Shown here piece after piece: positions 8,368 through 47,681 of a stretch of 50,643 nucleotides of DNA; position 1 is the first letter of the stretch; the number at the start of each line of letters is the position of its first letter. The notes beneath the pieces were generated by a model that had not been told where the DNA came from, did not search any database, and saw only the letters and a list, made by a program, of their open reading frames with translations. Where the stretch lies: NCBI GenBank assembly GCA_018697675.1, contig JABINC010000008.1, positions 1-50,643 of the forward strand, in the 5' to 3' direction. The translations under genes were made by a program, and so were the position numbers. The stretch is from Candidatus Peregrinibacteria bacterium. Lineage in GTDB: Bacteria; Patescibacteriota; Gracilibacteria; UBA1369; JABINC01.

Positions 8368-8913
8368 ATGAATCGTTTCCGCAAAAAATTTGTAAGATTT
8401 ATAGCCACACTTACGCTAAGTGTGCTCCTTAGCTTGCAAATTGCAGCGGCTGTATATGCAGACACCCCGAGAACTGTACTCCCCGAAGCAACTGTAAAAT
8501 GCAAAGAATACACCCAATACACAAACATTATAGCTGCTTACAAAAGAGCGGACAAAACTTCAGTAGAACTAGCAAATACCAAAAGAGCAGCTAAAAATGC
8601 ATTTGAAAATGACTATACTCGAGAACAACAATATCAAGTCATAGCTTGTACAATTAAATCAGGTCGATTCCATTTATTTATGGCACCATACATGATTCGC
8701 TATGTGCTAGAACTCATAATTGGGCTTGCCGGCCTTATTTGTACAATCTTTGTAATAGTTGGAGCGTATCAATATATGATTGGCTCAGTGGCAGACAATA
8801 AGCAAAAAGGGAAAGAAACGATCCGAAACGCGTTGATAGGACTTACTATAACCCTACTCTCTTGGCTTATAGTAAATATAGTCCAAGTAGCGGTTACTGG
8901 TGGTGGCGGTTGA
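8368..8913 (+). CDS. T4SS_pilin-like membrane protein
   Basis: The 181-residue protein has a basic N-terminus and a signal peptide (residues 1-31, ending AAAVYA), an extracytoplasmic segment with two Cys residues (VKCKEY, IACTIK), and two hydrophobic helices joined by a short charged loop (AGLICTIFVIVGAYQYMIGS, then KGKETIRNALIGLTITLLSW). The paired helices with the KGKETIRNALIGL loop match the small TrbC/VirB2-like pilin family (T4SS_pilin) that is common in CPR genomes. No other type IV secretion gene is nearby, so assembly partners are unknown. The gene ends in TGA, which supports UGA as a stop in this organism. Confidence 0.7.
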   Translation: MNRFRKKFVRFIATLTLSVLLSLQIAAAVYADTPRTVLPEATVKCKEYTQYTNIIAAYKRADKTSVELANTKRAAKNAFENDYTREQQYQVIACTIKSGRFHLFMAPYMIRYVLELIIGLAGLICTIFVIVGAYQYMIGSVADNKQKGKETIRNALIGLTITLLSWLIVNIVQVAVTGGGG

Positions 8914-8917
8914 TGAA

Positions 8918-8980
8918 GTTCGAGCCTTGATTTCTTGGCGACCGATAGACGAGAAGCCAGTAAAAATCAAAGGCGAGAAC
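8918..8980 (+). repeat. Hairpin element with conserved loop, copy A
   Basis: Nested complementary arms are visible: GTTC (8918-8921) with GAAC (8977-8980); GCCTTGATTT (8924-8933) with AAATCA-A-AGGC (8964-8974, one bulged A); and TGGC (8936-8939) with GCCA (8956-8959). The enclosed sequence GCGACCGATAGACGAG (8938-8953) occurs exactly at 47558-47573 on the other strand, inside another hairpin with different stem sequences. The element lies between the pilin-like gene and the AI-2E permease gene. It could be a 3'-UTR structure, a small RNA or a REP-like dispersed element. Confidence 0.65.
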
Positions 8981-9042
8981 GAATCAACGGAAAAATAAGA
9001 CAGGAATAATAATCAAATAAATTACAAATAATTAACATTCAC

Positions 9043-10239
9043 ATGAAGCATCACATCAAAAATTTTCTGCATCAAACAAAGAAGCTTAAGAAAAAAGTAA
9101 AGAATCTCGCTAAAGCAGAGCAAAAAAAGCGTCGCGAAAAAATAGAGCCACCAAAAGTAGAAAAAACTGAGCGAGTAATTATAGAACTTTCAATGGCTAG
9201 CGTCGCCAAGGCGACGCTCCTCATAATCCTACTTTATGTAATGGCCACATTCCTATCTTCTATCAAAGAAATCCTCATCCTGTTCTTCGTAGCAGTATTT
9301 CTATCTGCAGCACTCGATCCGGCGGTCGATAAATTACAAGAGAAAAAAATCCCACGTGCACTCGGAGTACTCATAATCTATTTTGCTGTATTTATCTTCC
9401 TATTTATATTTATCTCACAATTAATCCCGCTGATCGGAACGCAAGTCGCAGATTTAGCGGACAAAATTACAGACTTCGTCGCAAACTTAACTTCAAATGG
9501 GAAGTCAGACCTACCTTTCGCTAAACATTGGAAACCATTCCTAGACGACTTCCTGGTGACCATAGATCAAGATACACTCGTCGCAAACTTACAAGCAGGA
9601 TTAGAATACACAGCAAGCCAACTAAAGAATGTAGCAGGTAACACTTGGGCGGCCTTAACAGTCCTATTTAACGGTATTGTGAATGTAATAATAGTACTCG
9701 TTCTTACATTTTTCATGGTCATAGAAGAAGAGAATATCGAAGAATTCATACGCTCGCTTTTCCCATCACGATACAGCCAATACATAGTTACCAAAACCAC
9801 AAAAGTAAAAAACAAAGTTGGTGACTGGTTACGAGGCCAACTAACTCTAGCACTAACAATGGGTCTTATAACAGGAATCGGGTTCTTCATAATGGGAGTT
9901 GATTATGCGGCAACGCTCGGTATGATCGCCGCTATCGCAGAATTCTTACCAATGATCGGGCCAACAATTACATTCTTAGCAGCGGCCCTAATCGCCCTAA
10001 ACCAATCGGTTTGGCTGGTTATTGCAGTAGCAATTTGGTGTATTATCATGCAAATTCTCGAAGGTAATGTCTTGATCCCACTCATCATGAGAAGAGCGGT
10101 CGGATTAAACCCAGTAATTATCATTCTCGCAATGTTAATCGGATTCCAATTTCTTGGAATACTCGGAATTATCGTCGCACTTCCTACTGCAACCGTGATC
10201 AGTATCTTCTTGGAAGATTACACAAAAAAGAACAAATAA
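9043..10239 (+). CDS. AI-2E family transporter (permease)
   Basis: This 398-residue membrane protein belongs to the AI-2E/PerM/YhhT family. A basic cytoplasmic N-terminal extension of about 45 residues (KKLKKKVKNLAKAEQKKRREK) precedes a hydrophobic core of seven to eight helices. Family features include FFVAVFLSAALDPAVDKL, the central VLVLTFFMVIEEENIEEF, GQLTLALTMGLITGIGFFIMG, AAIAEFLPMIGPTITF and the C-terminal ILEGNVLIPLIMRRAVGLNP. Members export or exchange varied small solutes or ions, so the substrate cannot be read from sequence. The gene ends 24 nt before the convergent glycosyltransferase gene. Confidence 0.92.
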   Translation: MKHHIKNFLHQTKKLKKKVKNLAKAEQKKRREKIEPPKVEKTERVIIELSMASVAKATLLIILLYVMATFLSSIKEILILFFVAVFLSAALDPAVDKLQEKKIPRALGVLIIYFAVFIFLFIFISQLIPLIGTQVADLADKITDFVANLTSNGKSDLPFAKHWKPFLDDFLVTIDQDTLVANLQAGLEYTASQLKNVAGNTWAALTVLFNGIVNVIIVLVLTFFMVIEEENIEEFIRSLFPSRYSQYIVTKTTKVKNKVGDWLRGQLTLALTMGLITGIGFFIMGVDYAATLGMIAAIAEFLPMIGPTITFLAAALIALNQSVWLVIAVAIWCIIMQILEGNVLIPLIMRRAVGLNPVIIILAMLIGFQFLGILGIIVALPTATVISIFLEDYTKKNK

Positions 10240-47361: not shown

Positions 47362-47541
47362 GCGCGGACGACTATATCATTTTATTTCAAAAAATAAATG
47401 TCAATTAAAGACTTTGAGGGAGTAAATACACATTGTAAAAGAACACTTTCTCCAGCTCTAAAATGCATAAGAGGGAAAAAGGTTACAGTTTTTTAACAGA
47501 GTCTCGTTATTAGAAAAATTACCGAGCCTCCTCTTCACACT

Positions 47542-47585
47542 CTTGTTTGCCCTGCTCCTCGTCTATCGGTCGCAGCACAAACAAG
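47542..47585 (-). repeat. Hairpin element with conserved loop, copy B
   Basis: CTTGTTTG (47542-47549) pairs perfectly with CAAACAAG (47578-47585), and TGCT (47553-47556) with AGCA (47574-47577), with CCC bulged on one side. On the minus strand the loop contains GCGACCGATAGACGAG, identical to copy A at 8938-8953, though the stems differ in sequence. It lies 21 nt after the CCA end of tRNA-fMet. The intervening bases resemble those after tRNA-Leu at the left edge. Confidence 0.65.
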
Positions 47586-47606
47586 GTGCTCATTCGTTCA
47601 CCTCAA

Positions 47607-47681
47607 TGGTTGCGGAGGCCGGATTCGAACCGGCGACCTCCGGGTTATGAGCCCGACGAGCTGCCACTGCTCCACTCCGCG
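47607..47681 (-). tRNA. Initiator tRNA-fMet (CAU)
   Basis: On the minus strand the sequence starts CGCGGAG and the 3' arm is CTCCGCA with an encoded CCA; the 1-72 pair is a C-A mismatch, the initiator hallmark. The anticodon stem has GGG/CCC (CGGG-CTCATAA-CCCG), another initiator feature. The T arm contains GGTTCGAATCC. The length is 75 nt with CCA. Confidence 0.96.

Follow-up and report, generated by a model that had tools for sequence, protein, structure and literature searches.

A hairpin RNA element with tandem G-A loops in operons, tRNA trailers and a 16S leader of three related uncultured bacteria

Two hairpins in the window and their relatives

The window, a stretch of 50,643 nucleotides that is contig C8 of the 1.46-Mb genome G000, carries two copies of a long imperfect hairpin. 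The first lies between an ORF for a T4SS pilin and an ORF for an AI-2E family transporter, and the second, on the opposite strand, begins at the base right after the 3' end of a tRNA-Met gene (Table 1); genes at these and the other element sites were named via Pfam or by eye. As the original prediction had noticed, both hairpins contain the same 16-mer, GCGACCGATAGACGAG, for which we found no further match in the window even when three mismatches were allowed (0.11 matches expected by chance). The placement of both 16-mers in hairpins was likewise correct. However, the extent first given for the pilin copy, 8918-8980, was too short, and the full element comprises an outer helix (GTTGAT/ATCAAC), a second helix (GTTC/GAAC) and two internal loops of the G-A type. 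The stem letters first proposed omitted a bulged A before GGC, and the correct stem is GCCTTGATTT / AAATCAAAGGC.

Table 1 Features of the two hairpin loci in the window
Feature	Position	Strand	Details
Upstream ORF, T4SS_pilin (PF18895)	8368..8913	+	stop TGA 8911-8913 inside element
Type-1 element, full hairpin	8909..8988	+	R1 101.9 bits, R2 41.1 bits; MFE z -5.4
Outer helix, 5' arm GTTGAT	8909..8914	+	3' arm ATCAAC 8983-8988; fold and covariation (C-G/U-A at last pair)
First G-A type internal loop, GAA side	8915..8917	+	GA side 8981-8982; GAA/GA conserved in type-1 copies; fold
4-bp helix GTTC	8918..8921	+	3' arm GAAC 8977-8980; compensatory changes
Second tandem G-A loop, GA side	8922..8923	+	GA side 8975-8976; alignment
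16-mer, apical box GC-GA-CCG-AUAGA-CG-A-G	8938..8953	+	exact motif scan
Downstream ORF, AI-2E family transporter (PF01594)	9043..10239	+	Pfam
Type-2 (tRNA-trailer) element	47522..47606	-	R2 95.6 bits, R1 35.5 bits; fold -33.3 kcal/mol, MFE z -4.0; R1 boundary reaches 47520
16-mer in apical box of second copy	47558..47573	-	exact motif scan
tRNA-Met (CAT)	47607..47681	-	directly upstream of type-2 element; ARAGORN (L002:1550-1624), Rfam tRNA

A third exact copy of GCGACCGATAGACGAG lies on contig C21 of the same genome, and in a sister species of the same genus (G001) the sequence occurs three times, twice exactly and once with a mismatch; every one of these copies is within a long hairpin. Neither a lack of further copies nor unpaired copies, the outcomes named beforehand as speaking against a family, was observed: the covariance-model searches that had been suggested found 13 copies in three incomplete genomes, eight in G000, four in G001 and one in G005, which belongs to another family of the same order, and no element in the remaining 350 genomes of the class. 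The copies are either ~50 or ~80-86 nt long and form two subtypes, each detectable by the other's model. Model R1 added three G000 copies, all in the V-ATPase operon (B/D, A/B and K/E junctions), and its weak matches led to the hairpins behind tRNA-Cys and before tRNA-Leu in G000 and G001, as well as to a copy on contig C12 of G000. Model R2 was built from four type-2 copies. Of the six type-1 copies of full length, it recovered five from whole genomes (E 1e-7 to 5e-10), and the sixth, at ntpB/D, scored 33.7 bits in a search of the fetched loci only; since a type-2 model recovers type-1 copies, the subtypes are homologous. MAFFT aligned the mixed subtypes poorly, and model-based alignments were therefore used instead.

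The combined model R3, run over the 353 genomes of the class, added one convincing locus, the 16S rRNA leader of G005, where the hairpin has a different loop but has kept CCUUG/CAAG-A together with the flanking helix and the G-A steps. An independent degenerate pattern applied to the same genomes returned exactly the three canonical type-2 copies and the G005 copy, with zero control matches, and R3 found only the four known copies on ~1.31 Mb of G001. Weak R1 or R3 matches in G167, G135, G130, G200, G137 and G232 were discarded as AT-rich, coding or mispaired. No Rfam family (release 15) reached its gathering threshold at the element, and within the window only tRNAs matched; a permissive Rfam scan of five element loci gave a single irrelevant sub-threshold match. 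Exact-motif scans returned nothing from viral contigs and one match from GTDB genome contigs, in Sorangium, which we ascribe to chance (20-nt box only, 17.9 bits), and the phage and plasmid collections searched held no relevant match.

Architecture and covariation

From 5' to 3', the 80-nt type-1 element consists of GTTGAY, GAA, a 4-bp helix, GA, and GYC with an AU-rich helix, followed by an apical part of the form GC-GA-CCG-AUAGA-CG-A-G-GA-GC. The descending strand then carries a bulged A before GRC, GA, the 4-bp complement, GA and RTCAAC, and RNAalifold gives the same structure de novo. The 4-bp helix is fully changed between copies yet remains paired (GUAU/AUAC, GUUC/GAAC, UUAC/GUAA and GAUC/GAUC), and the bulged A before GGC recurs in nearly all copies. 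In type 2, single Watson-Crick pairs alternate with successive GAA/GA loops. A kink-turn or box C/D motif, for which the letters UGAUGA...CUGA were considered, was rejected on inspection: the loops are 3x2 or 2x2 and do not have k-turn geometry. The apical box resembles GACCGATAG, which we take to be a 23S rRNA sequence.

The GCGACCGATAGACGAG-bearing hairpins have fold z-scores of -4.0 to -8.5 (-5.4 to -8.5 for five type-1 copies). Double compensatory changes affect 7 of 27 pairs across five type-1 copies and 10 of 26 across four type-2 copies. None of 500 shuffles reached the type-1 covariation score, nor did any slid control; overall, covariation exceeds that of every slide and of all, or almost all, of the shuffles, although such controls are indicative and are not probabilities in alignments of only five and four related sequences.

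The loop had been described as fixed, and while the two window copies do share it, it is not invariant across the family. AUAGA, AUGGA, ACAGA and AAGGA all occur, the V-ATPase B/D copy has a compensatory swap of an apical C-G pair to G-C, and the short V-ATPase A/B and K/E copies (~50 nt, with a top helix of just 7 bp) are the basal module alone. Two of the 13 copies have no apical module, and in one more the loop is a different one. Because the two short copies lack the apical box, what stays constant is the basal helix and its tandem G-A steps. In the aligned helices, G-U wobble cells number 11 compared to four A-C cells, two of which vanish in the RNAalifold bulge register; this G-U excess, together with the sense placement described below, favours action as an RNA of the sense strand.

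Genomic positions, selection and turnover

Type-1 elements are found at T4SS pilin/AI-2E, secY/adk (G000 and G001), S14/S8, ntpA/B, ntpB/D, ntpK/E and ntpE/C, and type-2 elements in the tRNA-Met trailer and at tRNA-Cys/tRNA-Leu (G000 and G001); their homolog in the 16S leader of G005 sits between a promoter-like TTGACA-17-TAAAAT and 16S. The type-1 start lies 2 nt past the stop codon at four sites, 7 nt past it at one, and overlaps or contains the stop at three (span 0-7 nt), and the stop codons at the 3' ends of pilin and ntpB are supplied by the element itself. Rough per-site chances for the first five of these starts, those at 2 and 7 nt, combined by Fisher's method, come to about 0.002, with approximate gap lengths. 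All 12 copies with a clear context are in sense orientation, and a coin toss would place all ten independent assignable sites in sense only once in 1024. The copy on C12 (G000:C12:678-760) points away from the adjacent 16S and methyltransferase-like ORF, and no transcript that would carry it in sense is evident. A-rich sequence follows the type-1 copies, which do not have the U tract directly after the hairpin that marks an intrinsic terminator. Three roles had been offered at the outset. The independent small RNA finds no support, as every copy except one lies, in sense, within a transcribed spacer; a protein-bound mRNA 3' end and a REP-like hairpin agree with the positions and with the site turnover.

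Several shorter sequences were noted close to the elements. At the tRNA-Met copy, and at no other, TAATTTTTC follows a short way 3' of the hairpin. The box GAGACTCTG(GAAATA) repeats once shortly behind type-2 elements (window 47480-47525 (-), L022:1575-1615 and L023:60-100), and in the G005 16S leader the apical box core, ACCGATAGA, stands just outside the hairpin (L036:1587-1597).

The secY/adk junction allows the element to be compared between G000 and G001. There the proteins are 69-76% identical and four-fold sites 38-45%, synonymous sites being saturated, and the spacer around the element cannot be aligned. The elements themselves reach 86% identity, with differences that are partly compensated pairs, and this identity despite saturated neutral sites indicates purifying selection. 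Together with covariation above the controls, it bears out the earlier claim of selection on base-paired structure. We conclude that the hairpin is genuine, an RNA element of three related uncultured bacteria that had not been catalogued before.

Occupancy nevertheless differs between the sisters: two of nine comparable sites are shared, and the other seven hold an element in just one sister, in one case opposite a decayed half-copy. At the tRNA-Met site G001 carries an intrinsic terminator in place of the G000 element, and at pilin/AI-2E a plain 30-nt gap. No element was found at the ntpA/B and ntpB/D junctions of G001 or at the ntpE/C and S14/S8 junctions of G000. Since most sites are not common to both sisters, the element must be dispensable at most places. 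Among themselves, the three type-1 copies in G001 share 90-91% identity, compared to 86% with the secY/adk ortholog; similarly, the tRNA-Met copy of G000 and the tRNA-Cys copy of G001 are 82% alike, compared to 71% for the orthologous tRNA-Cys copies. Within-genome copies are thus as similar as orthologs or more so, which suggests that copies spread, convert or are lost.

Two gaps hold possible traces of elements. In the G001 ntpK/E gap (L021:9849-9888), TTGACAATGATCAAATCCTAACT resembles the 5' half, now decayed, of the short element present at this junction in G000, and in the G000 S14/S8 gap (L019:8324-8392) a hairpin GTCCTGC..GCAGGAC after GCGAACGATAGTGAGCACC, which is like a type-2 5' arm, is possibly a remnant.

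Two further observations concern the ribosomal loci of these genomes. In the ribosomal-protein operons of G000 (L019) and G001 (L020), the ATG of many genes is immediately preceded by CGACTN, and not by a GGAGG Shine-Dalgarno sequence (for example at L020:3425, 6153, 7152, 7507, 7920 and 8870; one form is TTAACAGCACGACTA-ATG); these letters complement AGTCG of the 3' part of 16S rRNA. In G001, ~2.27 kb separate the 16S start from a conserved 3' motif (L102:5920-8192), suggesting a large insertion or intron. Such 16S insertions and introns are common in CPR bacteria.

Possible roles and known systems

The reading we rank first, with somewhat less than even confidence, is intercistronic punctuation: judged from sequence, the hairpins would be a transcribed structured RNA family serving the processing or protection of long transcripts. 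A protein reading the stacked G-A helix would bind the hairpin co-transcriptionally and either cleave it or block 3' exonucleases, so that the flanking RNAs would be separated and their relative stability set, while copies are gained and lost between species in the manner of dispersed hairpins. The plainest candidate for the binder is RNase III, and an RNase III ORF with the signature NERLEFLGD is present in G001. However, a classical RNase III would find the short copies poor substrates if their G-A steps do not stack, and the orientation of the C12 copy, the many sites that the sisters do not share and the low numbers, with most operons managing without the element, count against punctuation.

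Ranked second, and possible at distinctly lower probability, is a mobile hairpin of the REP/BIME kind, a non-autonomous repeat moved by a transposase that lands at gene ends and is mostly neutral, with occasional use by the host, such as a slowing of ribosomes by copies within 15 nt of a stop. Such an origin would account for the turnover, including the decayed ntpK/E half-copy, for the clean empty counterparts at pilin/AI-2E and tRNA-Met, and for within-genome copies that are closer than orthologs, and the stops supplied to pilin and ntpB resemble insertion. It does not sit well with fewer than ten copies per genome, with the lack of a Y1 transposase (PF01797) in G000, which is 94.6% complete (a partial match occurs only in G001), or with the maintenance of the secY/adk copy against saturated neutral divergence, and a full sense bias with a G-U excess is unexpected for a DNA palindrome. 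Punctuation and mobility are compatible, and the element may have spread like REPs and been kept where an RNA function pays.

The remaining roles are unlikely. The range of sites could reflect a lineage-specific post-transcriptional regulon, in which one trans-acting protein would recognise stacked tandem-G-A hairpins across rRNA leader, tRNA, ribosomal-protein, secretion and V-ATPase operons, coupling ribosome, export and energy gene output in an ultra-small uncultured bacterium. Less probable again is a role in antitermination or elongation, in which the hairpin would act in cis, like nut/boxB or put, and modify RNA polymerase in long or untranslated transcripts, those of the rRNA, tRNA, r-protein and V-ATPase operons. 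An rRNA leader, a tRNA operon and long operons where translation ends are fitting sites for it, the 80-nt hairpin, with its pentaloop and its conserved internal loops, is a fitting form, and the G001 tRNA-Met site carries an intrinsic terminator in the element's place; yet most copies lie deep in operons, away from promoters, two have no apical loop, and a regex search of about 93% of G001, a weak test, found no Rho. Lower still we place a regulator of translation termination, whose hairpin would stall terminating ribosomes past the stop. E. coli REPs within 15 nt of the stop reportedly slow translation (work summarised in PMC12306157), and the proximity of type-1 copies to stop codons fits this precedent. 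Slowing of ribosomes could, by this analogy, apply to type 1, but it leaves unexplained the untranslated sites, namely the 16S leader and the tRNA trailers. Finally, a short conserved coding sequence (frame ...RPIDE...) has a negligible chance and was rejected, as the ATG-started 24-codon frame that crosses the box in the 47.5-kb copy is refuted by other copies without a common start or open frame, by non-synonymous box variants (I/M/T/K, P/A, E/D) and by covarying stems.

The element is an uncatalogued structured RNA family of clear architecture whose host group, judged from the small genome and the probable insertion in the G001 16S gene, is apparently the Patescibacteria/CPR, from which, to our knowledge, almost no cis-acting RNA elements have been described. 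It lies in the most conserved operons and occurs across rRNA, tRNA and mRNA. Should it serve as a signal for processing or protection, it would open a way to study how these reduced bacteria divide and balance their polycistronic RNA; a REP-like nature would make it a mobile hairpin acting solely in the RNA-sense orientation.

Among known systems, the put and nut (boxB) antitermination RNAs of HK022 and lambda (PMC9378689) are likewise transcribed hairpins with conserved loops that act in cis, whereas our element, with a putative function and no Rfam match, lies deep inside operons. The REP, BIME and REPIN sequences of Enterobacteria and Pseudomonas resemble it as short extragenic imperfect palindromes within operons, near stops and gene ends, with turnover between relatives. 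REPs are defined by hundreds of copies and a Y1 (RAYT) transposase (PMC3116915), compared to eight and four copies here and a partial PF01797 match in G001 only. Unlike REPs, the element is strictly sense, has a conserved apical box as well as internal loops of tandem G-A steps, and also occurs behind tRNAs and in a 16S leader. NEMIS/Correia and ERIC sequences are also dispersed, transcribed hairpins, NEMIS being cut by RNase III; they differ in their higher copy number, in sequence, and in terminal inverted repeats with TA duplication, a feature not seen in our element. The RNase III processing hairpins of bacterial operons, of the rrn spacer, rpsO-pnp and metY-nusA type, do not form one homologous dispersed sequence family as our element, a putative processing site, does; the two are alike in occupying rRNA leaders, tRNA trailers and intercistronic mRNA, and in their ~20 stacked base-pair layers.
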